A stretch of 44,686 nucleotides of DNA from Magnetococcales bacterium (GCA_002753515.1 PEAK01000032.1:1-44686); one strand, 5' to 3'. Positions 10,139-30,200 are shown, counted from the stretch's first letter. Notes: generated by a model not told the origin, from the letters alone. Made by a program: numbers and translations.

Positions 10139-10183
10139 AGGGTATATCGTATTTTTCTTCCAGTAAAACCAAGGTAACCGCCT

Positions 10184-11715: not shown

Positions 11716-14700
11716 TTATTCAATCGCCTTGTACCAAAACCGGCGTAATCGCGTCCCCATGCTCACCCCGGGGGGTTGATCGACGCGGATCCCGGAGACA
11801 ACGCCTTCCAAGGTTTTGCCATCGATTTGCACCATAACGGGTGTCGGGGGGGGAAGGAAACCGCCTCCCGGATGAACCTGCTTGCGATCGGATGCGGCCA
11901 ATTTGCTGTCGCTGTTCATATCTTTCACAGCCGTTGCATCGGTATAGGTGACCTGGTACGCCCGTGCGACCCCCAGGTTATTGACGCAACTGCCATCGCT
12001 GGCCACTGAAGAGGGTTGGTTGGTATTGAAGAAGACGGCATTGTTGAGGGTTATGGCGTTTCCGACGACCTTTTCACCTTGATCCAAAGCGATATACCAC
12101 CCTTTGGCTGCGCTCAGCAAAGTGGAGGCAGCGTCAGAGGTCGTCCCGGTTGTGCAAGTACCCGCTGTTTCCTGAGCCGAGGTACAGCAGGCTGTGGAGT
12201 CCTGAATGCAGTTGGCTGTCGCGTTATAAAGATCGCTCTCGGTAATGTTGAGATTGGATGAGGATGTACCGGTATAGGTATCTCTGAACATGTACATGCG
12301 ATCACTGATATTGGTATCCAGGGGGTGTTCCCGGTCGCCACTACCGATCATGATGGCATCATAGCCCGTTTGGTAAACAACATCGGGTGGGTACAAAAAT
12401 TTACGCAATCCACCCGGAATGGTGGATTGATCGGCCACTGCGGCCACTTTGGTGACCGTCCAGTTGTTGACATCGCTATCGGCCATGTTGATCCGCCAGA
12501 TAGTACCGCCGGTATCCCCAACGTATCCCCGGTTGATTTCACTGCCGCCATTGTTGGTGATGACGGTGACATCGCTGGGGATACTGTAATTCATACCGCT
12601 GACGGTCAGGTAGGGATGGGTTCCGCTATCGGTAATGTCGCGGCCCGGACCAGCCTGCCACAGAATGGCACCGGTAGTGGCATCAACGACGAAGATTCCC
12701 CGTCCCATGGTGCGGTTCGTGACGGAGCCACTGGCGGTGACGCTTGTGGAACTGACAGCGGTAATGGTTGACGGGGAGAGATCCTCGACGGAGGGATCAT
12801 AGCCGGCACCGAAGATCAACACGGGTTTGGAGACGTTGACACCGCTTGTTTTAATAGTCTTGGTGACAACCTTGGGTTCCGACCAGGTGTATCCCATCTC
12901 GGTAAAGCCGCTATCCGTATAAGATTTTTTCCACAAAAGCAACGGGGCATCGGGGGTGGTGACATCAAGGGCGTAGAGGAATCGACCGCCGCGTCGCATT
13001 CCCAGGAACAAATAGACTTTGTCACCATTGGCGAGCAAAATTTTGCCGTCCGCGTTGGCGTCGTAATAATAGGTACCGATGGGTCCATCGACAAAATAGG
13101 ATTTTTTATAGGTGCTGCTGATGATGGGATCATTATTGCGCAGGCGTTTCAAGTTACCGAAAAACTCGGTGGGGATGAAGCCCCAGATTTCATGGGCCGG
13201 GTCCGGTTGCCCGGTATCGGCGGAAAAACCACCCTTGATGGCGCGAAACACCCCATCATTGGCACCGTAGAACACAACAATATCGTTATCCGAGCTAAAG
13301 CGGTTGTAGTTGATGACAGCAGGTTTGGAATGCAACACGTCACTGTGGATGGAGGCCCGCACATCGGTCAGGCTGGAGTCAAGATTTTCATCTTCATAAT
13401 TATCCGTGCCTCGGACCCAGTTGATCAGTTCATCTCGTGCCGAAGCTGTGGAGCCGGCAGTGGCTAACGCGGCAGTAATGGTCCCGGAAGCGGTTCCTTG
13501 CGACGAAGGGATGGTGTAAGTGAAATTATTGGCATCGGTCACGGTTACGGTAAACGTCCCATTGAAGTCGGTAGGAGAGGCTCCGGCGATGGTAACGGAG
13601 TTGCCGGTGCTGAAACCGTGGGAAACGGCATAAGCCTTGGCTGTGGTGGAAGCGATGGCGGCGGTGGGAGAACCCGTTGCCGCTTGCAGGGGCGAACTGG
13701 CCAGGGTGTACTTGAACGTGTTGGAATCCAATACGGTGATGCTGTAGGTGCCGTTGAACGTGCTGGGGGTGGCACCACTGATAATGATGGAATTTCCCGT
13801 GGAATAACCGTGACCCGTGAGTGTGGCGAATGCGGTGGGTGAGGTCAGACGGGCGGTGATGGTCCCGGTGGCGGCGCTGGGTGAGGTTGGGGCACTGAAG
13901 GTAAAGGTGTTGGCATCAACATAGGTGATGACATGGGCACCGTTGTAGTCGGTTGGGGTGGCACCACTGATGGTTACCGAATCCCCTGTGGAAAATCCGT
14001 GCGCGGTTACCGATGCGGTAGCTGTGGTGGATACCCCTTTGCTGGCGGTGATGCTGGTTCCGGTTTGGGTTGCCAGGGCCGTACTGGTGGTATAAGTGAA
14101 AGTGGTGCTGCCCGTAACGGTAATGGTGTAGGTGCCGTTGTAGTCGGATGGCGAGGCACCATTGATGGTGATGGAATTACCGGTGGAAAACCCATGGGCC
14201 GCAGCCGTGGTGGCTGTAACCGTGGTGCTGCCCTTGGTGGCGGTTATGGTACCGGAGGCATTGGCAAGGGGTGACGAGGAAAAGGTAAACGTCGTGGTCG
14301 TGGGAACGGAGAGCAGCGTGACCGTGGTGTTATAGCCGGTAGGAGTGGCACCGGCAATGGTAATGCTGTCGCCAACACTGAAACCATGGGCCGTCGAGGT
14401 GGTGGCGGTAGCCGTCGAGGTTTGCCCCGATGCCGTTCCAAAGACGGTCGGTGACGTCAGCACCGACCCCGTAAAGGTGAACGTATTGGCATCCTGAACC
14501 GTGATGGTATAGGTGCCATTGAACCCGGTCGGGGTGACACCGGCGATGGTGACGCTGGTGCCGGTGGAAAAGCCGTGACCCGTGACCGTGGCGGTGACCT
14601 GGGAACTGGTCGTTGTTGCCGTTGCCGACGAGCAGTCGGAGGCACTGCCGTTGGCGATGGCGTAGGTGAAGGTGTTGGTGCCGGTTACGGTGATGGTATA

Positions 14701-16545
14701 GGTTCCAAGATATCTGGAATTACAGGAGGCTCCGGCAATGGTTACCGTCTGCCCGCTGGAATAACCATGACTGGCTATGGTTGCTTGAGCGGTGCCGTTC
14801 GAAGGGCGGGTGAGAAGGGTGATGCTTTTGGTCACTGGCGAGTTGGTTAAATTACTGATGCTGTAGGATTTGGTTGTGGTCAGACTGGAAACTGATTTGG
14901 TGACCGATCCCGTGGTCAGGCTGGAGACCGTCACGGGGCTGGCGGCGGTCGAAAGCGAACTGACGGACTTAACATCGGTCAGGGCGGAAATGGATTGCGT
15001 CACCAAAGCGCTCAGACTTGAAACGGTGTGGGTGTCCAACATGAGTGAAGAGGAGGTGATATCGGCATTGGTGGTATCGAAGGGATAGAGGGAAAGGGCC
15101 GATCCACTGGTACAAGCACCCGTACAGGAGTAGAGTTTCCGAGTGGTTTGAGAAGAGGCGTAATCGGTACGTAATTTTTCCGCCACCCCCCCTTTTTCCA
15201 CCAAGTCGCCATCCGGCAGGTCGGAGGAACCACCCGAACCATTGGAACTGCTATCCCGGAAACTCCAAAAATTGGAACTGGTCGTCCAATAACTGGAGGC
15301 ACCTTGCGTGATAAAACCGGTCGAGGAGTTTTCCGCTTTGACGCCGTTACTGTCCACCATGTACAGCGTGCTGGTCGAGGAGTCATAGCCCAGTTTGTAA
15401 CATTTCAGATTGCCGTACCAACGGGGCAACTTGTTGGCATCGGGGCGAAACATGCCAACGTAGACCTGATTCAAGTTGGTGCCACGAACATTGACGCTGA
15501 CGGGTAGGGTGGTTGCGGCGAACACGCTATTGACCGATTGAATCTCCGTAAATATGGCATTCAAGGTATTGATGATCGCTTGACCACCATTGCTGCTGGA
15601 GACGGAGTAATAGCGTCCCTTTCCCTTGTTGGCCATGCTTTTGAGCAAAGCGGTCATCGAGGGGCCTTGCCCTGTGGTCGTGGGGTCCACCTCGACGGTA
15701 TAGGTGTAAATCGATTGCGTGCCGCTGTAACTGCTGCTGATGTCGGAAGTCGCCAAATAGTTGGCCCACTCATCGGCCCAGTTGGATTGTTGGCCGTTGG
15801 GGGTGATGGAGATGACCGAGGGGGGGGTGGAACTGGTCAGGGTGGCGAGCTTGTCTTCGGAGACACTGAGGGCACTGGCGTTTTCGTTGGCCGGTCCATT
15901 ACTGATGAGAATGATAAAATTTTTCTGACACCCGTTGGCGATGGGGGCGTTGTACAGGCTGGCCGAGGTGGGCGAGGCGGGGAGGGCATAACTCCCAAGG
16001 CTGTTACTCGACGCGAGATTGTTGGCCGAATTGTTGGCATAGTCGGTTTTAATCTTACCATAACTGGCCCGGGATGCCTGACCGGAAAAATAGAGATAGG
16101 CTTCGTACATGGACAAGGCGGTTGTGTTGTTGTTGCCCTTATCGTTCAGTTTGTCCAGGGCATTCACCATGGTGGACAACACGGTTTTGTTGGTGGTCGT
16201 CATCTGCCGAATGGCAAAACGGACGTAGCCGCCATCCACATTGTCGTTGGGGTTGCCAGTTTCCGGATACATCATCAAGCCCAGGTTGAAACTGTCGCTC
16301 AGACCCTGTACCACGGAAACCAGGGCCGATTTCTCGTTGGTGAAAGGTTGATTCCAGTTGGCGGTATTGTCCAGAATGATCAATACATTCGGGCGCTCCG
16401 CCGTCACATTGGGATCGGCGAGGAACAGGTCGGTATCATCGTTGGACGGGTCGAATGTGGCCCAGGCGGTCTGAGTCGCCATCAGACATCCGACAACCAT
16501 CACAAACAACCGGAACAGGGCGGAAATAAGGCAGATTCGTTTCAT
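11716..16545 (-). CDS. pilY1: PilY1-type pilus-tip adhesin with seven internal HGFSTG repeats
   Basis: This 1609-residue exported protein begins with a Sec signal (MKRICLISALFRLFVMVVGC then an ATQTAWA cleavage region). The ATG is preceded by GGAGG at ideal distance. Residues of about 50-340 form a von Willebrand A-like domain (NVLIILDNTANW), with the MIDAS DxSxS reduced to DNTAN. A Ser/Thr-rich linker follows, then seven repeats of 60-66 residues. The C-terminal part is the PilY1 beta-propeller, recognisable by VVFYGANDGVFRAIKGGF, LHSKPAVINYNRF and a calcium-loop-like DANADGK. PilY1 sits at the pilus tip with minor pilins, promoting assembly, adhesion and surface sensing. It is the last gene of the minus-strand minor-pilin operon. 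The repeat insertion is unusual for the family. Confidence 0.9.
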   Translation of the reverse strand: MKRICLISALFRLFVMVVGCLMATQTAWATFDPSNDDTDLFLADPNVTAERPNVLIILDNTANWNQPFTNEKSALVSVVQGLSDSFNLGLMMYPETGNPNDNVDGGYVRFAIRQMTTTNKTVLSTMVNALDKLNDKGNNNTTALSMYEAYLYFSGQASRASYGKIKTDYANNSANNLASSNSLGSYALPASPTSASLYNAPIANGCQKNFIILISNGPANENASALSVSEDKLATLTSSTPPSVISITPNGQQSNWADEWANYLATSDISSSYSGTQSIYTYTVEVDPTTTGQGPSMTALLKSMANKGKGRYYSVSSSNGGQAIINTLNAIFTEIQSVNSVFAATTLPVSVNVRGTNLNQVYVGMFRPDANKLPRWYGNLKCYKLGYDSSTSTLYMVDSNGVKAENSSTGFITQGASSYWTTSSNFWSFRDSSSNGSGGSSDLPDGDLVEKGGVAEKLRTDYASSQTTRKLYSCTGACTSGSALSLYPFDTTNADITSSSLMLDTHTVSSLSALVTQSISALTDVKSVSSLSTAASPVTVSSLTTGSVTKSVSSLTTTKSYSISNLTNSPVTKSITLLTRPSNGTAQATIASHGYSSGQTVTIAGASCNSRYLGTYTITVTGTNTFTYAIANGSASDCSSATATTTSSQVTATVTGHGFSTGTSVTIAGVTPTGFNGTYTITVQDANTFTFTGSVLTSPTVFGTASGQTSTATATTSTAHGFSVGDSITIAGATPTGYNTTVTLLSVPTTTTFTFSSSPLANASGTITATKGSTTVTATTAAAHGFSTGNSITINGASPSDYNGTYTITVTGSTTFTYTTSTALATQTGTSITASKGVSTTATASVTAHGFSTGDSVTISGATPTDYNGAHVITYVDANTFTFSAPTSPSAATGTITARLTSPTAFATLTGHGYSTGNSIIISGATPSTFNGTYSITVLDSNTFKYTLASSPLQAATGSPTAAIASTTAKAYAVSHGFSTGNSVTIAGASPTDFNGTFTVTVTDANNFTYTIPSSQGTASGTITAALATAGSTASARDELINWVRGTDNYEDENLDSSLTDVRASIHSDVLHSKPAVINYNRFSSDNDIVVFYGANDGVFRAIKGGFSADTGQPDPAHEIWGFIPTEFFGNLKRLRNNDPIISSTYKKSYFVDGPIGTYYYDANADGKILLANGDKVYLFLGMRRGGRFLYALDVTTPDAPLLLWKKSYTDSGFTEMGYTWSEPKVVTKTIKTSGVNVSKPVLIFGAGYDPSVEDLSPSTITAVSSTSVTASGSVTNRTMGRGIFVVDATTGAILWQAGPGRDITDSGTHPYLTVSGMNYSIPSDVTVITNNGGSEINRGYVGDTGGTIWRINMADSDVNNWTVTKVAAVADQSTIPGGLRKFLYPPDVVYQTGYDAIMIGSGDREHPLDTNISDRMYMFRDTYTGTSSSNLNITESDLYNATANCIQDSTACCTSAQETAGTCTTGTTSDAASTLLSAAKGWYIALDQGEKVVGNAITLNNAVFFNTNQPSSVASDGSCVNNLGVARAYQVTYTDATAVKDMNSDSKLAASDRKQVHPGGGFLPPPTPVMVQIDGKTLEGVVSGIRVDQPPGVSMGTRLRRFWYKAIE
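13455..14815 (-). repeat. Seven tandem 60-66-residue HGFSTG-type repeats inside pilY1
   Basis: The repeats share HG(F/Y)S(T/S/V)G, then (N/D)S(V/I)TI(A/S/N)GA, a PT(D/G)(Y/F)NGTY core and DANTFTY. Seven copies can be counted, all diverged rather than identical, separated by Ala/Thr/Ser-rich stretches. The pattern is predicted to be all-beta and is common in phage tail and large adhesin proteins. The imperfect, coding nature of the repeats rules out a CRISPR or iteron explanation. Confidence 0.85.
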
Positions 16546-16584
16546 GGTGATACCTCCGTTTACCAGCGCATCCCCGGATTGTTA

Positions 16585-17022
16585 TCAGCAATCCGTGCAA
16601 CAAACTCCAGCCAATTGTCGTATTTGCACCCCTTGATGAATGGTTGCCACAGCACCGGTACTGGAGCTGGTGATGGTTGCGGTCAACTCCCAGGTGTTGT
16701 CTCGTGGCGACATGCCCCAAACGGCGCTGCTCCCCGAGGAGACCCGGGAGTAGATGCAGGCTGGAGCAGACACCGTTCCGCTATCACTGCCACTGGTAAA
16801 TGTCGTCGTCGTTCCACTCGACGAAAAAACGCTGCTTTTGGTCAATACGGTTTCCAAAGCCTGCTGGGTGGTGGCATCCAGGGAACGGCTGGCCTGCAGG
16901 TTGCCGACCACGCGAAAGTTGACCGTACTGACGTTCAAGGAGGAGATGACCATCATGGTCAATAGCATCATGATGAGCAAACTGGCGAGCAGCGTTATGG
17001 CGCCACGGGAATCGGTATTCAT
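16585..17022 (-). CDS. pilX: PilX-like minor pilin
   Basis: The 145-residue protein has a short basic leader and the hydrophobic start RGAITLLASLLIMMLLTMMV, typical of PilX/GspK-like pilins that lack the E5 residue of major pilins. The rest is a small Ser/Thr-rich globular domain with a CC...C pattern at the C-terminus. Its ATG overlaps the stop of pilW by 4 nt and pilY1 follows after 39 bp, the canonical pilW-pilX-pilY1 order. It would join the tip complex that primes pilus assembly. Sequence similarity beyond the N-terminus is weak, so the assignment depends on both the N-terminal pattern and the gene order. Confidence 0.75.
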   Translation of the reverse strand: MNTDSRGAITLLASLLIMMLLTMMVISSLNVSTVNFRVVGNLQASRSLDATTQQALETVLTKSSVFSSSGTTTTFTSGSDSGTVSAPACIYSRVSSGSSAVWGMSPRDNTWELTATITSSSTGAVATIHQGVQIRQLAGVCCTDC

Positions 17023-18125
17023 TCCAGGCTCCTTGGACCCGCCAGGTTGGTCAAGCGGACCTCGCTGGAAAAGAGGTGTCGGCGGTAGGCTGTGTTGAGA
17101 TCCGCTGCTGTAAGGGTGATATCTGCCAAGGTATAGCTTTTATTATCCGATTGACCGGCAGATTGCGACAGGGTGCGCACCAGGAGCCATGCCTGGACCG
17201 ACATGACGGATGTCCACTGGGAGAGCGTGGGCGCGTTGCTGTAAGTTGATGGGACACCCGATCCGACCATGCCCGTTTGGCTGTTGGTTGAGGTGTCCGT
17301 ATCGATGCCGTACAGGATTTTCATGAATTCCACCCCCTCGGCTACGGGGGTGATCACCATGGCGGTCGCGCCGCTTGCTGCTGTCAGATCAAGACGCTTG
17401 AGAGTGGGAATGGTGTCGTCACTGCTGGTACAGATGCCATTGGTGCCACTGCCAACGCTGCAAGGGGCCACGAAAAACAGGGTGACGTGCAGTTTTCGCG
17501 TATCAGCCGCCGATACGGTCGCACCGTTACGTTTGTTGATGGATACCACGCCGCCATCGGCGGTGGTGGACGGGACATTGGCGGTGGAGCTGCCGAACTG
17601 GATGGCTGCGGTGGTGACATTGGCCTGGAGGTAGACCTCGTTGGTAACCGGGGTACCGCTGAGTACGGCAGTATCAGCCCGACGCATCACGATGATATCG
17701 GAGCCGGGTTGCAGGTTGGCATTGGGGAGATAGGATGTTTGACAGCTCGTGCTGCTGATATCGGCGCGACTGGTTTTCGATGTCGCACGATACCCCTGTA
17801 TCGGCAACGCTATGGCAGCCAGGAGGGACGTGGCATCGGTGGCACACGGGTCGGGCAGGGTAGCCGGAGTTGTTGGGGAACTCTGGAAATAATGACCAAA
17901 ATATCCGGTATGGCGCAACTCTTCGTACAGGGTATTGATGGAATAACTCCCATTTTCTTCGATATCACTGGAACTTTGCAATTCTTTCTGCGTTCGCGAT
18001 GAGGTAACCAGCATGGAGATGATCGCCAGCAAAATCACCAAACCAATCGCCATGGAGACCATGAGTTCCACGAGGGAAAATCCCCTTTGCCGATTGGGAT
18101 GAGGGTGTATCACTGTTTGAGCCAT
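17019..18125 (-). CDS. pilW: PilW-like minor pilin
   Basis: The protein has 368 residues. The leader MAQTVIHPHPNRQRG ends at a type III signal peptide site followed by FSLVELMVSMAIGLVILLAI, with the E5 glutamate present. The ectodomain segment EENGSYSINTLYEELRHTGY is a hallmark of PilW (an x-L-x-x-x-L-R-x-A/T-G-Y pattern). Length fits the family. It lies 21 bp downstream of pilV and overlaps pilX. It should be processed by PilD and incorporated into the pilus-tip minor-pilin complex in the inner membrane. The counterpart in the other cluster is at 21473-22837, only distantly similar. Confidence 0.88.
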   Translation of the reverse strand: MAQTVIHPHPNRQRGFSLVELMVSMAIGLVILLAIISMLVTSSRTQKELQSSSDIEENGSYSINTLYEELRHTGYFGHYFQSSPTTPATLPDPCATDATSLLAAIALPIQGYRATSKTSRADISSTSCQTSYLPNANLQPGSDIIVMRRADTAVLSGTPVTNEVYLQANVTTAAIQFGSSTANVPSTTADGGVVSINKRNGATVSAADTRKLHVTLFFVAPCSVGSGTNGICTSSDDTIPTLKRLDLTAASGATAMVITPVAEGVEFMKILYGIDTDTSTNSQTGMVGSGVPSTYSNAPTLSQWTSVMSVQAWLLVRTLSQSAGQSDNKSYTLADITLTAADLNTAYRRHLFSSEVRLTNLAGPRSLE

Positions 18126-18146
18126 GGGTTTGGCACCTTACAGGAG

Positions 18147-18965
18147 TCAAGACGAGGTCAGATTGGCAAAACGGACGGTTTTGCTCACGGCCCGACGTTT
18201 GCTTTCAGATCCGTACAGGCCGTTGGCGCAGACGGCTGTGGGTGCCGTGGTATCGGTCATGCCCTGCCAGGAGATGGTGACGGTATAGGCACCACTGCCG
18301 TCGATGCTTGCCCCCGTACTGTCGGTTAACTGGGTGGTTGCATCGTAGCTGATGCAGGCCCTGGCACCGATCATGCCCCCGGTACCGGAGCCGCTTTTGG
18401 TTTCGGACAAGCCTTGTAACTGACTGTTCAGGGCGCTGAGCGTGGCGTCAGCACGGGTATTGTAAGCGGAAGTACTGGCGGCGCAACCCGTTGGTAACGC
18501 CCAACCGCTCCCTGTCGTTCCGATGAATGGCGTTCCGCTGGTCAGATTGGTGGTGAAGTGGAAGCAGGAGAGGGTCGTGCGATTGACGTTGAGGCGTTCG
18601 CTGATATCCGATAACAGGATCAAGGCCTGGGAACGTTGGTAGGACTCCAGCTCGGAGGCGTGTACCCGGGCCATCAGAGCGGCCAGCCCCAGGAGCCCGA
18701 TGGAAACAATGAGCATGGTGATCAGAACTTCCAACAGGGAAAATCCTAGCTCTACTTTGTCATATTTGTAGTTCGGTGTTTGTAGCCTCTGGATTCCCGC
18801 TTTCGCGGGAATGACAGCTACCTTCTTCAACGGAATTTTTGTTTTGTCATTCCCGCGAAAGCGGGAATCCATGGTGTTTACCCCAATGTGACAAAGTAGA
18901 ACCAGGCTATCCGGGAAGTTTCCCGGCATCCCAAGGCTATGTATGCGAGGGGGTTGCGTTGCCAT
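18147..18965 (-). CDS. pilV: PilV-like minor pilin with MITE-extended leader peptide
   Basis: The mature part begins at FSLLEVLITMLIVSIGLLGL, a typical PilV prepilin start, followed by a helix with SERLNVNRTTL. I chose ATG 18965 because it overlaps the fimT stop as TAATG; a GTG at 18974 is in frame. With this start the leader is 74 residues, far longer than the usual 6-30. A palindromic element (18753-18898) supplies 48 codons of it, including DSRFRGND and VIPAKAGIQ. Its net length of 144 bp keeps the frame. Removing it would restore a leader of about 26 residues. An internal ATG at the start of MDSRFRG, inside the element, could serve as an alternative start and would shorten the leader to about 43. 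Prepilin processing should still occur after LG. Confidence 0.85.
   Translation of the reverse strand: MATQPPRIHSLGMPGNFPDSLVLLCHIGVNTMDSRFRGNDKTKIPLKKVAVIPAKAGIQRLQTPNYKYDKVELGFSLLEVLITMLIVSIGLLGLAALMARVHASELESYQRSQALILLSDISERLNVNRTTLSCFHFTTNLTSGTPFIGTTGSGWALPTGCAASTSAYNTRADATLSALNSQLQGLSETKSGSGTGGMIGARACISYDATTQLTDSTGASIDGSGAYTVTISWQGMTDTTAPTAVCANGLYGSESKRRAVSKTVRFANLTSS
18753..18898. mobile_element. MITE-like palindromic element, copy A, inside pilV leader
   Basis: The element is bounded by TA dinucleotides with inverted ends TACTTTGTCA and TGACAAAGTA (in copy A the match extends outward to TCTAC/GTAGA). Inside are two perfectly complementary 25-bp arms at 18791-18815 and 18846-18870, each itself a palindrome built on TTCCCGC/GCGGGAA. 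No transposase is encoded. The TA flanks suggest a Tc1/mariner-IS630-type non-autonomous element, which is an inference. Counting one TA as the target duplication, the net insertion is 144 bp, a multiple of three. It is a relative of copy B at 21531-21676, in the same orientation relative to its host gene. Confidence 0.8.
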
Positions 18966-19444
18966 TAGGTACACCCATTGGTTGTGTCGTTATCGCCATC
19001 GATTTTGATATGGGGCATGCCGTTGGTACTGACGGTAATACAACGCATGGTTACGCGGGTGTTGCCGGTTACATAAGCCTGGAAATCGCTGACGGTTGCT
19101 GTCGGACGACCGTTACCCTGGAAGGTGACGTTGGTGCTGGGTCCTGAAATGGCCAGTTCGGTATACGGATCCACAGTTTTGAGGACTGTTGTTCCGTACT
19201 GGACAGTCCAACCCCCATTCCAGGTCGTGTTGGGAACGATGGAGACGCTGGCGTTGCGCTTGATGGCTTCACTGCGGGCGTAGAGAAGGCTCAAATGGTA
19301 GTCGGAGACGGCGCTTTTGACCTTTTGGTTCAGAAGGCTGGTTCTCAGGTGTGGCATGCCCACGGCAACCATGATGGCGACGACTGCCACACCGATCAGG
19401 AGCTCTACCAAGGTAAAACCCGATTGCGCAGAATTCCGTTTCAT
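18965..19444 (-). CDS. fimT: FimT/GspH-family minor pseudopilin
   Basis: The predicted protein of about 159 residues starts MKRNSAQSG, then FTLVELLIGVAVVAIMVAVG with E5. This is followed by the GspH/FimT helix pattern LSLLYARSEAIKRNASVSI, where R-S-E-A-I-K-R is the family signature. ATG 19444 gives a normal nine-residue leader; GTG 19474 is an upstream in-frame alternative. A C-terminal Cys pair is present (RCI and the final GCT). Its stop overlaps the pilV start (TAATG). FimT-type pilins act at the pilus tip and in some species bind DNA during uptake. Confidence 0.87.
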   Translation of the reverse strand: MKRNSAQSGFTLVELLIGVAVVAIMVAVGMPHLRTSLLNQKVKSAVSDYHLSLLYARSEAIKRNASVSIVPNTTWNGGWTVQYGTTVLKTVDPYTELAISGPSTNVTFQGNGRPTATVSDFQAYVTGNTRVTMRCITVSTNGMPHIKIDGDNDTTNGCT

Positions 19445-19495
19445 GTTTGGCAAGTACGTGACCATGGTTTTCACTGTTTTGGCAATGCATGACGC

Positions 19496-19912
19496 CTACC
19501 AGCCCGCGACCCCATTGAGTGTTTTGGCGCCGGTGCTGCTCAGGGTCAGGGTGCCATCCTGAAGTTGTGACCCGCTGGGGGTGGCCGTTATGGTGTACGA
19601 AGGTGGGGGACCGGATGAAGCGGCCACCGCCACCGAATAGTAGGAATTGGAGCAGGCCGATGCGGTACAGGTCCAACTGTCGGCGCTGAAATTGAGGGTG
19701 GTCAACGAACTGGTATAACTCAGTGCATCCATGAGGTATTGTTCTTGGCGATTGGCCATGTTGACCATGAGTTGTTGCGCGTCGGACCGCCGGGATTTGC
19801 GCACGGAAGAGGAATAGCTCGGTAGCGCAAAGGCAACCAGGAGACTGATGATCGTAACCACGACCATCAATTCAACCAGGGTGAATCCTTGTGATTTGTC
19901 AGGTTGATACAC
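19496..19912 (-). CDS. pilE: PilE-like minor pilin
   Basis: The protein has 138 residues with an eight-residue leader MYQPDKSQ then GFTLVELMVVVTIISLLVAF, E5 present. The following segment VRKSRRSDAQQLMVNMANRQ closely follows the PilE minor-pilin pattern (K-x-R-R-x-D-A). Two cysteines in the C-terminal half could form the D-region disulphide. It is the first gene of the minus-strand cluster, with the start 64 bp from a good extended -10 promoter. It is a minor pilin by size and context. A major-pilin role cannot be formally excluded. Confidence 0.87.
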   Translation of the reverse strand: MYQPDKSQGFTLVELMVVVTIISLLVAFALPSYSSSVRKSRRSDAQQLMVNMANRQEQYLMDALSYTSSLTTLNFSADSWTCTASACSNSYYSVAVAASSGPPPSYTITATPSGSQLQDGTLTLSSTGAKTLNGVAGW

Positions 19913-20117
19913 GACGGTTTCCCGGAAGATATTGGTGACTGATTCGTATCCTGTTGGATTCTGTTGACTGGCATGATTATACCATCGACCAGGGTAAAGC
20001 GGAATCTCAATGTTGATCGTTTGTTGGCAATAAACACTTTACATTGTTAGTGATTGTTTGTTAATCTTATAGGGAGTGATTGATTCGGTTCCTTTGTTTC
20101 TTTGCCAGGGTGGCCCC
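19913..20117. other. Divergent intergenic region between the two pilus-tip clusters
   Basis: This 205-bp AT-richer segment separates the two head-to-head operons and must carry at least one promoter in each direction. The leftward promoter candidate is listed separately. Rightward, TTTACA at 20038-20043 could be a -35 box with a poor -10 about 18 bp later (TAATCT, 20062-20067). I found no sigma-54 pair with correct GG/GC spacing. Confidence 0.45.
19976..19984 (-). promoter_or_regulatory. Extended -10 promoter element for the minus-strand pilus cluster
   Basis: Read on the minus strand this is TGGTATAAT, a perfect TGN-TATAAT extended -10 box, about 64 bp upstream of the pilE start. The expected -35 position has no good match, which is usual for extended -10 promoters. 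The assignment is by consensus only. Confidence 0.5.
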
Positions 20118-20822
20118 ATGGCCGACTGCTTTCCCAAGAGCGATTTCGCTTGTGTGCCGAACGATGTTCATCCCGTGCATCAATCACGGGTTTGGCGATT
20201 ATTGGCAGCGCCAAGGTACCGAGCGAGCCGGTTTACAGGCTTCACCGTCATAGAACTCATGGTTGCCATCCTGGTACTCGCAGTCCTGGCCATGGTGGCG
20301 GTTCCTTCCTTTAAAACCATGATCCGTACAGCCCGTGTGACTTCCCAGGTCAATGATTTTGTGGGAACGCTTGCTCTGGCCCGCAATACGGCAATCAAAC
20401 GTGGTACCACGGTGACCGTCTGCGCCAGCGATCAATCCACGGGCAGTACTACGTCATCTTCCTGCTCCACAAGTACTTGGCAAATTGGCTGGATGGTGTA
20501 CGTTGGTTCCTATACCACAACCCCGGCTGCCTCCACGATTTTAAAAGTTCATACCAATTTTGCTGGCAGTGCCGGTTCCACACAAAATACGTTGCGCGGC
20601 GTGGATACCAATGTGACGCCCAATATCACCTATTTTGGCTCATTTATCTCTTTTCTGCCTTCGGGGCAGGTCTATATGGCCAGTGGTACCAATCGAGGTT
20701 GTTTTTTTCTGATTGATTCGGTGCAAAATGTGGTTAGCGTGATGCAAATCAGCAAGGGGGGGCGTATCCGCCCGACTTCCATGACGCTGCCTGCATCCGG
20801 GACGGCTATTCCATGTACCTGA
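20118..20822 (+). CDS. fimT: FimT/GspH-family minor pseudopilin (second cluster)
   Basis: Beginning at ATG 20118, preceded by a GGG-rich ribosome site, the product has 234 residues. The leader is about 39 residues, rich in Arg near its end (PRYRASRFTG). It then has FTVIELMVAILVLAVLAMVA with E5 and the FimT/GspH helix FVGTLALARNTAIKRGTTVTV. The family C-terminal strand pattern (FLPSGQVYMASG) is also present. The frame stays open upstream to 20076, so the start is not certain. The leader is long even without any inserted element. It is the first gene of the plus-strand cluster and overlaps pilV by 10 nt. Confidence 0.85.
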   Translation: MADCFPKSDFACVPNDVHPVHQSRVWRLLAAPRYRASRFTGFTVIELMVAILVLAVLAMVAVPSFKTMIRTARVTSQVNDFVGTLALARNTAIKRGTTVTVCASDQSTGSTTSSSCSTSTWQIGWMVYVGSYTTTPAASTILKVHTNFAGSAGSTQNTLRGVDTNVTPNITYFGSFISFLPSGQVYMASGTNRGCFFLIDSVQNVVSVMQISKGGRIRPTSMTLPASGTAIPCT

Positions 20823-21442
20823 TCCCTGATTTTCGATCTTCTACCGTCATAGGCGATCATTCCAGGGCGGGTTTGACCCTGATTGAAGTGCTGATCACCA
20901 TGGCGGTCACGGCGATTGCCCTGCTCGGGGTCGTCAAGATGCAAATCAACGACATGGTTCATGTGCAAAACTCCTACTTGCGTGCTGTGGCAACCCATCT
21001 GGCATCGGACATGATGGATCGGATTCGCGCCAACAAGACCGGGATCAACAATGGCGATTACAACAGCATTACAACCACCCCCACAACCATAACCGCCAAT
21101 GTCACCTGTGTGACGTCAACCTGCTCGACAACCACGGCACCAACCATCGCCACTTATGATGCCTATGTTTGGCGTACCAATGTTGCCAACAGTTTTCCAT
21201 CCAAAGTGGCCACAGCGACGGGCACTGTGACCGGATGCAATCAAAATACGGTTCCCGCTTGCACAGAGTACACAACGCAGGGGACTGAGTTTACCATCGT
21301 CATCAGTTGGCGACTCCCGGGAATCCCCAAACAAGCTTTACTGCCGGCGGGCAGCCCGACCTCCTGTAGCGCGATGGTGGCAGGGAGCAGCGTCCGGGAT
21401 GAAACGTGTTATCAGGTCAGTTTTCGGGCCTTTCCAAACTGA
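20813..21442 (+). CDS. pilV: PilV-like minor pilin (second cluster)
   Basis: The protein has 209 residues. The leader of about 19 residues ends RAG and is followed by LTLIEVLITMAVTAIALLGV (E5 present), then the PilV helix NSYLRAVATHLASDMMDRIRANK, in which the D-M-M-D-R-I-R-A-N pattern is a strong family marker. Cys residues in the C-terminal half could pair. The start codon lies 10 nt inside the end of fimT. It is the normal-leader counterpart of the MITE-bearing pilV at 18147-18965, which makes the pair a natural comparison. Confidence 0.9.
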   Translation: MYLIPDFRSSTVIGDHSRAGLTLIEVLITMAVTAIALLGVVKMQINDMVHVQNSYLRAVATHLASDMMDRIRANKTGINNGDYNSITTTPTTITANVTCVTSTCSTTTAPTIATYDAYVWRTNVANSFPSKVATATGTVTGCNQNTVPACTEYTTQGTEFTIVISWRLPGIPKQALLPAGSPTSCSAMVAGSSVRDETCYQVSFRAFPN

Positions 21443-21472
21443 AGGCATCCCTATAGCAGGGAGGATCGTGTC

Positions 21473-22837
21473 GTGAAACCTGGAAATTACCCCTTTAACC
21501 AAGCTTCTCCCTTCTATTGGTTTTCAGTTCTACTTTGTCACATGGGGAAATACTTCCTGGATCCCCGCTTTCGCGGGGATGACGGCAACTTTTTTCAACG
21601 GATTTTCAGCGTCGTCATTCCCGCGAATGCGGGAATCCAGAGATCACAAACTCCAAACTGGAAATGTGATAAAGTAACATTAGGATCTTCCGCTGGCGAG
21701 CTAGGATTTACCATCGTTGAACTGTTGATGACCACCGCCATCAGTCTTTTCATTATGACGGGTATTTCATTGCTGTACTCCAATACCAGAAACAATCTGC
21801 GCATGCAGGCGGATGCCTCGTTCATGACGGAGAATGCCCAATTCGCCTTGGACGGTCTGGAGTTTCATTTACGCCTTGTCGGTCATTGGGGGGGGGTGAA
21901 GGATGCTGCGGTAACCGGTTTGACCCTGGCTGGTTGCAGCGGTTTCGCCATTCCATCGACGCTGGTATCCCTCCAGGGGTATGCCGGTGGGGCCACCGTA
22001 CCGGCGGGACCCGACCAGTGCATCACCGCCCTGGCGGATTATCAACGCAATTCGGATATCCTGGTTGTTCGTTATGCCCTGCCAGACGCCATTTTTCCCG
22101 TGGATACCACGCTCAGCTATTCCTTGGGGGCCCTGGTACAGACCCCCGACATCACCAGTACCCAAACCTCACCGGCTACCCTCTATCGCTGCTGTACGAC
22201 AGGGATTCCTTCCACTGCCGGAACCTTCAGCGCCGGGGAATGGTCGACTCTGAATAATGCCTATATCGTGCGCAGCCTGGTCGGTAAGAGCGCCCAGATT
22301 CTGCAAACCTCTGGCACGGGACAACTGACCATTCCAGCCACCCTGCCCATGGACCGTTATAATACGACTAATCATATGTTCAAGGTTGAGATTTTTTTCA
22401 TTCGCCCTTGCAGTGATCAAGGTGCCAACGGCGTGTGCGATGCCACGGATGATAACGGCGCGCCGATTCCCACTTTGGTGTCTTATTCTTTGCAGGATGA
22501 TGGTACCATGATCCAACAAGCGGTGGTGGATGGCATTGAAATGATGAAACTGATTTACGGTGTCGATACCGATGGCGATGGCGTCCCCAATCAGTATGTG
22601 ACGGCGGCCAACGTCAGTAACTGGAGTCAGGTGGTTACGGTGCAGATCAGTCTGGTGATGCGTTCCCAGGATTTTAATGATCGTTATGCCAACCTCTACC
22701 AGCAATCTTTCTCCATGGCCGGTGGGTACACCTTTGTTCCCGCGACCGATTCCGCCACCTCAGCCACAGCGCACATCAAATCGTACAAGCGGATCATGTT
22801 TACCAAAGTGGTCCAATTGCGCAATCGGATTTATTGA
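21473..22837 (+). CDS. pilW: PilW-like minor pilin with MITE-extended leader peptide (second cluster)
   Basis: This 454-residue protein starts at GTG 21473 behind AGGGAGG. The mature sequence begins FTIVELLMTTAISLFIMTGI after ELG and shows the PilW pattern ENAQFALDGLEFHLRLVGHW. The leader is 78 residues, of which 48 codons come from the palindromic element at 21531-21676 (PRFRGDDG and VIPANAGIQ). Without it the leader would be about 30. An in-frame ATG at 21542 lies inside the element. A DTDGDGVPNQY segment near 370 looks like a calcium-binding loop. A run of nine G at 21888-21896 lies in the coding region. The stop is closely followed by the pilX start. Confidence 0.85.
   Translation: MKPGNYPFNQASPFYWFSVLLCHMGKYFLDPRFRGDDGNFFQRIFSVVIPANAGIQRSQTPNWKCDKVTLGSSAGELGFTIVELLMTTAISLFIMTGISLLYSNTRNNLRMQADASFMTENAQFALDGLEFHLRLVGHWGGVKDAAVTGLTLAGCSGFAIPSTLVSLQGYAGGATVPAGPDQCITALADYQRNSDILVVRYALPDAIFPVDTTLSYSLGALVQTPDITSTQTSPATLYRCCTTGIPSTAGTFSAGEWSTLNNAYIVRSLVGKSAQILQTSGTGQLTIPATLPMDRYNTTNHMFKVEIFFIRPCSDQGANGVCDATDDNGAPIPTLVSYSLQDDGTMIQQAVVDGIEMMKLIYGVDTDGDGVPNQYVTAANVSNWSQVVTVQISLVMRSQDFNDRYANLYQQSFSMAGGYTFVPATDSATSATAHIKSYKRIMFTKVVQLRNRIY
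21531..21676. mobile_element. MITE-like palindromic element, copy B, inside pilW leader
   Basis: The same architecture as copy A: flanking TA, ends TACTTTGTCA and TGATAAAGTA, and two palindromic arms at 21559-21583 and 21614-21638 that pair with each other with a few mismatches. Net insertion length is again 144 bp. Orientation and reading frame relative to the host prepilin gene are the same as in copy A. The two copies differ at many positions, especially between the arms, so neither is a recent copy of the other. Downstream, both hosts share GAGCTAGGATTT; copy B has an additional 21 bp before it. Confidence 0.8.
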
Positions 22838-22839
22838 CG

Positions 22840-23619
22840 ATGAAAACCAACCGGTCGTTTTCTTTATTTGGTTTGATGTGTTCCTGCGATGAACGGGGGT
22901 ACATCCTGGTCAGCAGCATGGTTTTATTGTTTGTGTTATTGATTGTTGCGTTGTCTGCCATGCAAACCACCACCATGGAGCAACAGGTCACCATCAATTC
23001 CGCCAACGCCACCCTGACCCGCCAGGGATCGGAATGGGGTCGCACGGTCATCAGCGATGTGCTGATTGATCACTTCGCCTATCGGGGATGGCCGGCACCC
23101 ATGGGCACGCTCACCGCCGGATTGTTCAACGTCCCGGCCAAATTGTTCGTCCGCTCGACGGCGGCAACAGTGACCAGTTGTACCCTGATTGGCACAACGC
23201 TACCAACAACACTTCCCGCCTCGCCAGTCAGTCTGGCAGTCAATGACGGTACCGGCGCGCAACTTTCCGACAGCAAGATGGCCGCCGGGGTGGCGACATC
23301 CATCCTCGATTTTCGTTGCCCCGATGCCCGATTGACTTTGAGTACCCGGGGTACCTTGACAAATGCTGGTGCCAGTATCGATGACACGGTCATCAATATT
23401 TACGTGATGCAATTGGGAACGGTTCTGGGGGCAGGTGCCAGTGTGGCGGAAAGTGCTGGCTACGAAGGGACCGGAAAAGGGAGTGCCAGTGGGGGTGGGG
23501 TGACCTATTTGGATGTGCGGGCCTGTAGCAGCAGCGATTTGACCTTGGGTGGGCAATGTCGCTCGGCATCTGCGGCGTCGGTGGTTCTCGGGGCACAGTA
23601 TCAAATGATCATCCGCTGA
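22840..23619 (+). CDS. pilX: PilX-like minor pilin (second cluster)
   Basis: Starting at ATG 22840 (a TTG at 22834 is an alternative), the 259-residue product has a 19-residue leader and the segment RGYILVSSMVLLFVLLIVAL. This is followed by SAMQTTTMEQQ, an almost canonical PilX junction. E5 is absent, as in the PilX/GspK group. The ectodomain is longer than that of the PilX in the other cluster (259 against 145 residues) and contains several Cys. It sits between pilW and pilE in the expected tip-complex gene order. Confidence 0.87.
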   Translation: MKTNRSFSLFGLMCSCDERGYILVSSMVLLFVLLIVALSAMQTTTMEQQVTINSANATLTRQGSEWGRTVISDVLIDHFAYRGWPAPMGTLTAGLFNVPAKLFVRSTAATVTSCTLIGTTLPTTLPASPVSLAVNDGTGAQLSDSKMAAGVATSILDFRCPDARLTLSTRGTLTNAGASIDDTVINIYVMQLGTVLGAGASVAESAGYEGTGKGSASGGGVTYLDVRACSSSDLTLGGQCRSASAASVVLGAQYQMIIR

Positions 23620-23662
23620 GCATACGTGTCGGAATGGAATCAAGAAAAAGGCTTGGAACGAA

Positions 23663-24136
23663 ATGAAATGGCAAGGCGATTGGTATCATTCTTCGGCTTC
23701 GAGGATCCTGGGCGGCAAGGGGGGATTGACCCTGGTTGAGCTTTTGGTTGCCTTGATGATTGTCGGACTGCTCGTTGTCGTGGCTGTTCCCAGTTATTGG
23801 CAAATGGTCCACAAATCCAGGCGAGGCGATGCCATGACCTCTTTGGGCAATCTGGCCAATGCTATGGAGCGGGGCATGTATACCAATAATTGCTATTCCA
23901 ATATTATCACAGGGACGCAAAATTATTCCAATATGTCTGTAGACACCTATTATCAATTGTCCATTACACTTCCTGCTGGTACCTGTCCCACTACCTACAC
24001 CCTGACCGCTACTGCCAACAGCAATACCGCCTCGGGGTACACCAGTCAAACCAAAGATAGCGACTGCCAAACTTTTACTTTAAGCAATACTGGGGTCAAA
24101 ACCTCCGCTCCCTCCACCACGGGATGCTGGAATTGA
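23663..24136 (+). CDS. pilE: PilE-like minor pilin (second cluster)
   Basis: The 157-residue protein has a leader of about 20 residues ending GKGG. It continues LTLVELLVALMIVGLLVVVA (E5 present) and the PilE-type segment MVHKSRRGDAMTSLGNLANAMER. C-terminal cysteines flank the predicted D-region (CPTTYTL, DCQTFTL and the final GCWN). It is placed between pilX and pilY1, whereas in the opposite cluster pilE comes first, so the two clusters differ in this one position. It is likely a minor pilin of the tip complex. Confidence 0.86.
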   Translation: MKWQGDWYHSSASRILGGKGGLTLVELLVALMIVGLLVVVAVPSYWQMVHKSRRGDAMTSLGNLANAMERGMYTNNCYSNIITGTQNYSNMSVDTYYQLSITLPAGTCPTTYTLTATANSNTASGYTSQTKDSDCQTFTLSNTGVKTSAPSTTGCWN

Positions 24137-24227
24137 TTTTTTTTGATCAGGTGTAGATGTGTTGAGCATCTATAAAAAAAAGGGCCAGGTACTACCTCAA
24201 GCCCTCTTGGTGAGGAGCCGCGACGCC

Positions 24228-27200
24228 ATGATGCAATCGACTTTCTCCGAATTTTTCCAATTGTTGCGAGCAATCAATCCTCCACATATCCGATGGGGTT
24301 GGTCGTCCAATTATTTTTGGGTCTTTGTTGTCTTGATGGGGCAGGTATTTCTGTCTCACGACACCTTGGGGACACCGCCATCATCCGGGGGAACGTTGAC
24401 GACCCCCTGTGTGACGACCAGTTGTACCGAAGCCAATTTTTCTTCCACACCGACCAATTTATCCACGGCATCGTCAATTAAACCCCAGGTGATGCTTGCC
24501 GCTGCCAAGGATCACCGACTTTATTACAAAGCCTATGATGATTTTTCCGACATCGACGGTGACGGCGTTATAGACAATACGTATCGCCATAGTATCGATT
24601 ATTATGGCTATTTTGATAGTTATAAATGCTATGATTACGTTGCCGACACCACGGCCAACACGGTAACATCCGGTACCATCGCCCGCTTTGAGCCCAAATC
24701 GGTCAATAACGGTTTGGCATCTACCGCTTCTGCTTCCGACAGAAAATATTGCACTGGAACCAATAATGGTTATTGGAGTGGTAATTTCCTTAATTGGCTC
24801 ACCATGACGCGCATGGATGTGGTGCGCAAGATATTGTTCGGTGGCTACCGTCGCATTGATGCTTCCACCGATTCCAGTTCGACCAGCGCCACGAGTGGCA
24901 CGATCCTGGAGCGGAGTTATTTGCCCCACGATGCCCACAGCTTTGCCAAGTATTACAATGGCAGTGATCTCGCGTCTCTTTCACCTTTTGAAATCACCCC
25001 ATCGACGACGCCGGTGGACCTGAGCAACAAAGTGAGCGCTACCTCCCATACGATTGCCACCGGCAGCAAAACCTTTACCATTACCGGTGGTGTCCTGGTC
25101 AGTGAATTCAGCGTCAACGATTACGTGGATATCTATCGCACCGATAGCGGTACCGCTGTGATGGCCATGCAAGGCTATGTCAGTGCGACCCCTTTTTCCA
25201 CACCTGCAAGTGCCACGGGAACAATTGTTGTCAATATCCTGGATACCTTTTCCACCAGTTCCACCGCCTTGACATCGTGGAAGGTGGTCAACCGGAGTTG
25301 GATTGGACGGGTGACCAAAACCAGTACCACTTCGCAAAACATCGGCACCGGATCCAAGACCTTTACCGTGACTCAGGGTGTCAGTACCGCGACCAACGAA
25401 ATCATGGTCAACGATTTGATGACCGTATACAAAACCTCAGGTACCGAGGCTTGGGCCATGAAAGGGTTGGTTACCGCCGTGACCAGCACTCAGGTAACGG
25501 TCAATGTGACCTCCACCAATGGTTCTGGGAGCGGCATCACTTCTTGGAAACTGGTCGACAATACCCGGGCCGGCATTAGTTTTTGCAACACCACCGATAC
25601 GGTCAGTACCGGTACTTCGGAAACCATTACCGAACCGCCACTCTTGAAAATAATCAAGGGCAACTACAGCTTGTGGGCCAGTAACGAGCGTTGGCAGTGT
25701 ACCTGGGCGAGTGGTGCCCCGGTGGATAATCATGCCATATCCTCAGGCAGTACCGGTACGAACAGTAACGACCCCATCAAGTCTGGCCTGGATGCGTTTC
25801 CCAACAGCCCGAGTTATCCGCCCACGACAACCCCGGCGCAGGGGAATTATGTCGTTCGGGTCCATGCTTGTGTTCCAGGTTTGTTGGGTAGCGAACGCTG
25901 CAAACAATATCCCAGCGGCAACTACAAACCCATCGGCTTGTTGCAGGTGTATGGCGACGATGGCAGTATGAACTTTGGCATGATGGCGGGGACCTTTACA
26001 AAAAATAAGAGTGGAGGCGACCTGGTTAAAAATACGGTCCTGTTGACCGACGAGATCAACGTGAATACCGATGGTACCTTCAAAAAAGTGTACTCGGGTG
26101 TCACCTTTCCCAACGGCGTGGCCAGCAACACTTCCGAGGGCATCATTAATGCCTGGAGTTTGTACCGTGTCATCAGATACCGGCATTCTGACGGCACCTA
26201 TGGCACCAGCGGTACCGACAGCAGCAATTGTAGCTGGGGGCTCAATACGTTCGCCAACAATCAGTGTCAGAATTGGGGCAATCCTTTTGCGGAGATTGTT
26301 TTTAACGTCATCCGCTATTTTGCCGGCAAAAGTTCCAGTACCGTTTTTGACGCTACCGATTCAAGTTTACTGACCGGTCTCAATTATGCCCCGGCTGCGG
26401 TGACCACGCCGGCCACGACAACGCCTTGGGCCGACCCCTTGAACGATCCCTATACCACCTCTTCGCCCCCTTCGCCCCATACTTCCGCCAATTATTGTGC
26501 CCGGGCGTTCACTGTTTTGTTCAACTCCAGCACCCTGTCCTATGATGGCGATGAGCTGGATGGTACCAGCAGCAATGGAGTGGCTTCGCTTTCTACCAGC
26601 GGCTTGACTTCCACGCAATTGACCGATCTGATTGGGGTCAATGAAGGGGTTCATTCGTCTGCCGGAGTTGCCAGCGGCACCTATCTGGTGGGTTCCACCC
26701 CAACAAGCAGTGATGGTCTGTGTACCCCGAAATCCGTTACCAGTCTGGGCTCGGTTTTGGGCATCTGTCCAGAGGCTCCGCGCCTTTCCGGCACCTATAA
26801 AACTTCTGGCTTGGCCTATTTGGCGCATACCCAGGATCTCAGACCCGGTGATGTAACCATTAAGGCGGCCAACCCGACCTATAAGAATAAACTGGATTTT
26901 TATTCGGTCCAGCTCTCCAGCGGCGTTCCCCAGGTGACCATCGCCATTCCGGGCAGTTCCAACACCTTGACCATTTTGCCAGCTTGCCGCAATACGACCA
27001 CCGCCGCCGATGGTAATCCCATTGGCAACTGTGCCATCGTTGATTTCAAGGTAGTGGCGGATAACTTTGCCACCAATGGCACCGGAAAGTTTTATGTCAA
27101 TTGGGAAGACAGTGAGCAGGGGGGGGATTATGACCAGGATATGTGGGGTACCATGGATGTTGCCTTGGTTCCCACCAATGGAGTCAGCGGTCCGCCCTAC

Positions 27201-30200
27201 AATCAGGTGACTATTACTACACAGGTACTCGCTCAATCCACACCCAATATCATGGGTTTCGGATATATCCTCAATGGAACCACCAACCAGGATGGTTTCC
27301 ATGCCCATTCCGGCATCAACGGTTTTGTCTATACCGACCCTGGTCCCACCAACTGTGGGACATCGGGCTGTAAAATTCGTTCCGACACCAGTTTTGGCCC
27401 TTCGACGATTGGCACCGCTTCTTCTGCCACGTACACCCTGGGTACCGGGTCCGCGGGCTTGCTCAAGGATCCTCTGTGGTATGCCGCCAAATATGGTGGT
27501 TTTGATACCTCCACCGCAACCAGCACTTGGCCAACTCCCGAGGCGCAAACCACAGTCAGCAGTGTCCTGCAGAATACGACCTGGGATAAAACCAACAACT
27601 CGACCGGTGCTTCAGGTGCCGATGGCATTCCTGATAATTATTATTATGCAGCCAACCCGGCGCAACTTGAAAGCGCGCTCAACCGGGCGTTCCTGGATAT
27701 TTTGCAGCGCACCTCCTCTGGAACGGCCGCTGCGGTGGTCGCGGCCACCGTCGATGGCGTGGGTGCCACCTATCAGGCTTATTTTGAACCTCTCCGCCAG
27801 GATATTGCCAACCGCAAAGTCACCTGGATCGGTTCGCTCCAGGCGCTGTGGATCGACAAGTATGGCTTTTTGCGCATGGATGGCAACCAGAATGGCCAGC
27901 TTGACAATTATCTGATTGACAAGGTGGTCCAGACCTATTTTGATTCCGTGGATAACAAAACAAAAGTTAAGGTCTACACGACTACCGACAGCACCGGTAC
28001 GACGTTTACGCCGCCGATAGCGACCACGCCGTTGGCCTTGAATCCGAACTACACCGTCATTGACTTAGACGAGGTGACTCCTCTATGGAACGCACGCAAG
28101 CAACTCTCTTCCACCGGCCTGGATGCCACCATCACCAGCCAACGGGATGCCTCGGTTAACCAGGGGAGCAACTTTACGGTGACAGCCGACACCGGTCGGC
28201 ACATTGTTACCTGGTTGGATGTGAACAACAATGGCATTGTGGACACGGGAGAGATTGTCAATTTTGATACCTCTGCCATCGATGCCACCAAGTACGGTTT
28301 TTTCAATTTGCCGAACAGCACTAATCTGAGCAATCTGGTCAATTATATTCGCGGTCAGGAGATCTCCGGCTATCGCAATCGCACCATCAATTATACCAAT
28401 GCAACTTCTGGCACCGCTGAAGTGATGCGTCTGGGCGACATCGTCAACTCGACGCCAGCGGTTGTCGGTGCCCCCAAGGAGGCGTACGATCTCCTGTATA
28501 GTGACCCGAGTTACGCCACCTTTAAAAGTTATTATGCCAATCGGCGGCAGATGGTGTACGTCGGGGCCAACGATGGTCTACTGCACGCCTTTAATGGCGG
28601 TTTTTTCAACGCCGCGACCCTCACTTTCAGCACCAGTGGCAATAAACCGGATGGTGCGGCTGCCATGGCGCACCCCCTGGGCTCTGAGATATGGGCCTAT
28701 CTCCCCATGAATCTGCAACCGCATCTGCAATGGTTGACCGCCAATAGTTACAGCCATGTGTTTTACATGGATGCCAAGCCCCGTACCTTCGACGCCAAAA
28801 TTTTTACCGCCGACAGTAATCATCCCGGGGGATGGGGCACCGTTTTGGTAGCGGGCATGCGCCTGGGTGGCGGTCCCATGACCATTACCCCCTTTGCGGG
28901 CATGACGGGTCTGCCTGCGGGTTTAACCAGTACTTCACAGGTTACCAGACGCTCCGCTTTTGTCCTGCTCGACATTACCAACCCGGAACTGGCACCCAAA
29001 GTGATGGCGGAGATCCCATTACCCGATGGCACGTTTACCACCAATTATCCAACGGTTATGGGTTTTCGTAATGTTGTCATTCCCGCCAGCGATGCCAACA
29101 AATGGTATCTGGTCGTTGGTTCCGGCCCCAATTCGTTAAGTGCCTTTTCCATGGTCAGCAACCAAACCCCCAACCTGTATGTTTACGACTTGGCCAATCT
29201 GTCTTCGGGTCCGGTCAAAACATTTCCTCTTAACGGTGCGGGGACGGCAACGACGACGGTGCTTTCCGGTCCATCGGCTCCCAATACGTTCATTGGCAAT
29301 CCGGTTGCCGTCGATTGGGGTCTGAACTATGGCACCGATGCGATTTATTTTGGTCTGGTGGGAGACTTGCCCGCCAATACCGGCAAACTGATCAAATGGC
29401 CGGTCAACCGTATTGCCACCGCCGCTTCCTGGACGACGCCGCCGTTTGTATTGTTCAACACGGGTCTGCCCTCGGTATTCACCCCGACTTTGGCTTTGGA
29501 TGAGTTGAAAAACCATTGGGTTTTTGGTGGTTCCGGGCGGTTTTTCATCGACAGCGACAAAGGCAGCATCACCCAACAGGAACTTTTTGGGTTCCGGGAT
29601 AAGGAGGATGGTGCTACCTTGTCAACCAATCATTTGATGAACGTTACCAATGTTCAGGTTACTTCCGATGGCAGCATCGAAAATGCTACCGTCAGCCCAA
29701 TCCTGAACACATCTACCAATACCTATACCTATACGATCACCAACAATACACCGGTCTGCAAATTGAATAATTGTACCACCTACGGCTCTTTGACCACACT
29801 CTCCGGTTTGGAAAGCTACATCCAGAGTGGCGATGCCGATGGTAATGGAGTGACAGATTATCTGGGATGGTACCGCACTTTGGCTTACGATGGGTCCAAT
29901 CCCAGCGAACGAATGGTGACGCAGATGCCCCTTGTCGGCGGTACCCTGGTTGCCACATCCTATACCCCCAATGCCGATTTGTGTCAGATAGAGGGAACCA
30001 GCAATCTTTATGGTCTTTATTATAAAACGGGCACCAGCCATTCGTCCGCCATACTCGGTTCCGCCACATTGCAGGGGACTTCCAGTACAACAAAAACACT
30101 TTCATTGACTTCCACATCTTTGGGACGAGGACTGGCCACCAGTCCGGATGTCCACATTGGAACGGGCAAGTCGGCGGGGGATGTGACTGTGGTGGTGCAA

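Follow-up and report, generated by a model that had tools for sequence, protein, structure and literature searches.

The insertion of MITEs and palindromic elements in frame within genes is established for Rickettsia palindromic elements (RPEs), the 107-bp Correia form, ERIC/RU elements and CGTC REPs (PMC2229807, PMC3733652). Among the Correia elements, a form with an open frame is fused to genes and a form with stops in all frames is almost only intergenic (PMC2229807). In Yersinia, part of a predicted signal peptide is supplied by a MITE, YPAL/RU-2 in YPO1552 (PMC2759123), and REPs are known inside coding regions, many at N termini, where many cases are suspected to be untranslated (PMC3733652). 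The two elements described here were found in a window of 44,686 nucleotides, i.e. the whole stretch of DNA analysed, from a Magnetococcales bacterium (GCA_002753515.1, PEAK01000032.1:1-44686). Two divergent minor-pilin operons lie back to back at 11716-30293 of this window and hold fimT, pilV, pilW, pilX, pilE-like and pilY1-like genes; one element sits in pilV of one operon and the other in pilW of the other operon.

The pilV-like minor prepilin gene (18147..18965, minus strand) was assigned by PF07963 (N_methyl), and pilW (21473..22837, plus strand, GTG start) by PF16074 (PilW, E=3e-23). The original prediction of two MITE-like elements inserted in frame was borne out, both being present inside these genes. 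By copy alignment, TIR and TSD, the pilV copy was located at 18749..18902 on the minus strand and the pilW copy at 21527..21680 on the plus strand, each being 154 bp without the TSD. Alignment of all genome copies defined the element ends as TA-NTTCTACTTTGTCACATT...AATGTGACAAAGTAGAAN-TA with TA as the TSD, one copy of which has decayed to CA in each gene (pilV: TA at 18747-18748 and CA at 18903-18904; pilW: CA at 21525-21526 and TA at 21681-21682). With the TSD the elements span 18747-18904 and 21525-21682, so that the ends lie 6 bp further out than those first proposed (18753-18898 and 21531-21676), and the net insertion in both genes is not 144 bp but 156 bp, or 52 codons (154 bp plus the TA duplication).

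In this family, 18-bp terminal inverted repeats enclose two CGTC-type palindromes. Palindrome matches placed the arms at 18792..18813 (CGTC-REP type) and 18848..18869 in the pilV element and at 21560..21581 and 21616..21637 in the pilW element, the window holding 8 such matches where shuffles predict 0.2. The TA flanks, inverted ends and paired arms originally proposed are all present. The inner arms CGTCATTCCCGCGAAAGCGGGAAT have the form of a CGTC REP, a palindromic unit of 20-40 bp ending in a CGTC tag. The two copies had also been described as having the same orientation relative to their genes, which holds for the long and short outer arms but not for the central spacer TTTTCAACGG, which is inverted in the pilW copy relative to the pilV copy; an inverted centre was also seen in one other genomic copy (L040). 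Likewise, the pilV element does end just before the prepilin peptidase site, 1-2 residues before G|F, whereas about 9 residues separate the two in pilW. The leaders of 74 (pilV) and 78 (pilW) residues were confirmed, and the range of 8-40 residues given for other prepilins widened to 7 to about 47 over the genome, counted from the furthest ATG. When the element is removed and the flanks are joined, the predicted leaders are ordinary ones of 22 residues in pilV (MATQPPRIHSLGMPGNFPDSLG|F) and 27 residues in pilW (MKPGNYPFNQASPFYWFSGSSAGELG|F).

Both elements are copies of one TA-flanked MITE family. In the genome surveyed (Magnetococcales, 4.33 Mb in 134 contigs; sister MAG, nWRX3bin12), the 17-base element end occurs in about 145 copies, corresponding to roughly 70 elements with larger relatives included, and about 35 full copies were read. 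A length of 154-155 bp, an 18-bp TIR, a TA duplication, tens of copies and an empty sister site are the features of a bacterial MITE. Many contigs are terminated by larger multi-copy repeats with the same TIR, ending 121 bases inside them; these repeats have at least three different inner sequences, and one carries an ORF starting with MSGADPP. Judged from their ends, they are candidate autonomous partners. None of the DDE_3 (IS630-type) loci of the genus carries this TIR, so that no IS630 partner was found there and the family does not class as an IS630/Tc1-derived MITE. The genome also contains palindrome arrays and nested combinations, some of them long composites bounded by the same ends (e.g. 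C63:4500-11500). Several copies lie at a stop codon or close to one, the TA target being provided by the stop codon; in one young copy (C87:67731-67886) the insertion is right at the stop of another prepilin gene.

Copies fell into a young and an old form. The young copies (about 30) are nearly identical, have a net length of 157 bp and contain stops in all six frames, whereas the old copies, found in pilV, pilW, the cytochrome gene described below, one contig of the sister species G001 (C201) and another relative, G007, have a net length of 156 bp and are open only when the TA occupies codon positions 2-3. Except for the G007 copy, they are open in one orientation only, and in both pilin genes the short arm comes first. 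The old form therefore has, rare copies apart, essentially one open frame and orientation, which explains why pilV and pilW share both; this sharing accordingly does not show that the two pilins are specially related. The original view that the copies are old and do not stem from one recent event was judged right. An alignment suggested independent frame-restoring deletions in pilV and pilW, an idea that was dropped because the three other old copies, in three genomes, also have a net length of 156 bp. Probably the 156-bp length came first, and copies of the young burst carry one extra base.

By searching the genus with the element-encoded peptide, we listed the open copies. Each of the four copies readable from TA to TA in this genome lies in a sequence encoding an N-terminal export leader, that of PilV, PilW, an RND membrane-fusion protein (C31:9704-11005) or a multihaem cytochrome c (minus strand of contig C120, with the mature part at 9842-10561). 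The cytochrome copy directly follows ATG CTA behind a TAAGGAG ribosome site, and without it the protein would begin with MLKWILAWLGAGLMAAGAAVVVADD, a Sec-type signal. In the fusion-protein gene, which is flanked by an apparent outer-membrane factor and an RND pump, the element amounts to 70 codons and splits the signal sequence; the G001 orthologue has no insert (364 versus 434 codons), its mature part is 99% identical and the TA target is present. The element peptides are hydrophilic with a net charge of +3 to +6, and the hydrophobic core behind the element is intact in all four cases. With starts upstream of the insertion in each of the four genes and translation predicted from them, these are in-frame insertions of a protein-coding palindromic element of the RPE-like kind. 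On a rough estimate, in which export leaders make up 2-5% of coding sequence, finding four out of four in leaders by chance would have a probability below about 1e-5. The cases number only four, and in G001 two of the four readable copies were outside genes; both points count against the explanation favoured below. At least one clear mid-gene disruption was seen: in the Tyr codon of its CAYCH motif, another multihaem cytochrome gene is interrupted by a family copy (C14/C35 contig ends). Other in-gene candidates (C67, C63, C45 and G001 C11) were rejected as palindrome arrays or unsupported short ORFs. Leader insertions together with a broken cytochrome gene are what random insertion followed by selection against damage would be expected to leave.

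Comparison with relatives showed that the pilV and pilW insertions are both in frame in G001, while the pilin orthologues recovered from G002, G006 and G007 lack the element and their leaders are short. The G001 pilV gene is split within the element across two contigs, C124 with the start and first part and C155 with the rest. In C155 (5687-11835), pilV and the element are followed by unrelated DNA that holds a PilT-type ATPase gene, probably through a misjoin at the repeat; the first impression that G001 pilV has unrelated upstream sequence was overturned by C124, which shows the true leader. Between the two species, the pilV element differs at 2 of 35 synonymous and 4 of 118 nonsynonymous sites and the pilW element at 0 of 33 and 1 of 120, regional divergence being patchy in both cases; the mature part of pilW differs at 62 of 220 synonymous and 23 of 683 nonsynonymous sites (omega 0.10). 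Along 18847-22600 of the window, divergence from the sister varies from 0 to 33 mismatches per 100 bp, which suggests recombination tracts. The near-invariance of the pilW element could reflect constraint, but because of this patchiness recombination explains it equally well.

The best explanation of these data, to which we give a probability of roughly 0.8, is survivorship of insertions tolerated in cleaved export leaders. The TA-targeted MITE would land at a TA in codon positions 2-3, short arm first, inside an N-terminal export leader, and the host's own start would translate it as a hydrophilic, net positive extension of 52-70 residues before the intact hydrophobic core. The extension would lengthen the leader on its cytoplasmic, n-region side, targeting would still work, and prepilin peptidase or signal peptidase would then cut off the whole extension. 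Since the mature protein would be unchanged after this removal, the insertion could survive, whereas insertions elsewhere in genes would break the gene and be lost. We infer that leader insertions are neutral rather than beneficial. The suggestion that the leader is the only tolerant site stands as far as its tolerance is concerned, but the tolerance extends to export leaders generally, including those of the cytochrome c and the RND fusion protein, and not just to prepilins.

That the elements are untranslated, with the real starts downstream of or inside them, is a reading that could draw on the in-frame ATG inside each of the two window copies, but it seems very unlikely to us. In the sister species CTG replaces the pilV internal ATG, that of pilW is conserved there but has no ribosome site, and none of the four genes has an in-frame ATG, GTG or TTG from the end of the element up to the cleavage site or hydrophobic core. 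In addition, the upstream starts are either coupled to the preceding gene (the fusion protein, and pilV, whose ATG overlaps the fimT stop as TAATG, or TGATG in the sister species) or placed behind a Shine-Dalgarno sequence (the cytochrome, and pilW, whose GTG follows a GGGAGG ribosome site; Shine-Dalgarno AGGGAGGA at 21458..21465, plus strand, AGGGAGAA in the sister species). Because upstream starts are present, downstream in-frame starts are absent and the pilV internal ATG is unconserved, both pilin insertions are most likely translated whole, as originally proposed; a start inside the element is possible in pilW. Spread of one element between the two pilin genes by recombination had been suggested from GAGCTAGGATTT, which is common to both, and is refuted by the comparison with the sister species. 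This sequence is the element end in one gene and host sequence in the other (GAGCTA is the element's own end in pilV and belongs to the host gene in pilW, some 18 bp past the element), it is replaced by GAACCAGGCTTT in pilV of the sister species, and the sharing is therefore a coincidence; moreover, outer sequence and central orientation differ between the copies, and the same type of insertion occurs in unrelated genes.

Exaptation, in which the element peptide would have been selected as a leader module because it enhances or controls export or pilus assembly, would account for the frame kept in pilV and pilW in two species, for the almost invariant pilW element and for a basic peptide, as an n-region should be. 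It is nevertheless unlikely, since the pilV element shows no clear purifying selection at the site counts given above, the four host genes are unrelated and the sister's fusion-protein gene does without the element. Nothing speaks positively for the original alternative of a retained leader or start-codon module: the sister lacks the in-element ATG of pilV, the cytochrome copy stands behind the gene's own Shine-Dalgarno and ATG, and the frame follows from the single open frame; a selected leader module is unsupported, though conceivable. Because that frame is leader-compatible, being hydrophilic, basic and without a hydrophobic stretch, the family might also be conceived as a mobile n-region module, kept for or tuning export of pilins, cytochromes and efflux parts, which we hold to be doubtful. 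Control at the RNA level, by a 150-nt hairpin at the message start that would act on translation or on message stability, by way of RNase III sites such as those reported for NEMIS, fits the strong predicted hairpins (-78 and -72 kcal/mol, z -13 and -9). However, every copy, intergenic young ones included, folds about as well or better, so that the hairpin is no specific evidence for regulation but comes with the element, and such control appears improbable.

If insertions are tolerated in this way, cleaved export leaders would be a refuge in which mobile DNA can lodge within a gene and leave its function intact, the leader being discarded and the mature protein unchanged. The same genus supplies both the empty sister-species site and the broken-gene control, and frame, phase and position give a simple rule for other REP/MITE-rich genomes. 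The pilV and pilW leaders are unusually long natural prepilin leaders and offer material for prepilin peptidase studies.

A literature search, in which subscription papers were thinly covered, found no report of MITE-lengthened prepilin leaders. As far as these searches show, the family and its restriction to cleaved export leaders are new, as are the insert-free allele of the sister species and the exclusion of starts downstream of the element. The parallel originally drawn with RPEs is apt (Ogata 2000; PMC2229807, PMC10969869): these are also palindromic repeats of about 150 bp with an open frame, inserted in frame in unrelated genes. The likeness is one of description, the host is different, and RPEs are found in many conserved enzymes and even RNA genes, whereas here four of four open copies are in N-terminal export leaders. 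Correia/NEMIS elements of Neisseria, compared through a review (PMC2229807), are likewise TA-flanked MITEs with two size forms, and their contrast of open and stop-rich forms is a direct precedent for the 156- and 157-bp forms; here, however, the stop-rich form is the young, amplified one, the two forms are about one base pair apart, and the element has internal CGTC-type palindromes and the TIR NTTCTACTTTGTCACATT. Yersinia RU-2 is rich in hydrophobic residues, whereas the present element adds hydrophilic, basic residues in front of a hydrophobic core that is still the host's own. The internal arms CGTCATTCCCGCG...CGCGGGAATCCAG are of the type of the CGTC-tagged REPs (PMC3733652), but two such REPs are here enclosed in a TIR-bounded, TA-duplicating element, and downstream starts are excluded, unlike in the N-terminal REPs suspected to be untranslated (PMC3733652). 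In-frame MITEs were already known; their confinement to export leaders appears to be new.
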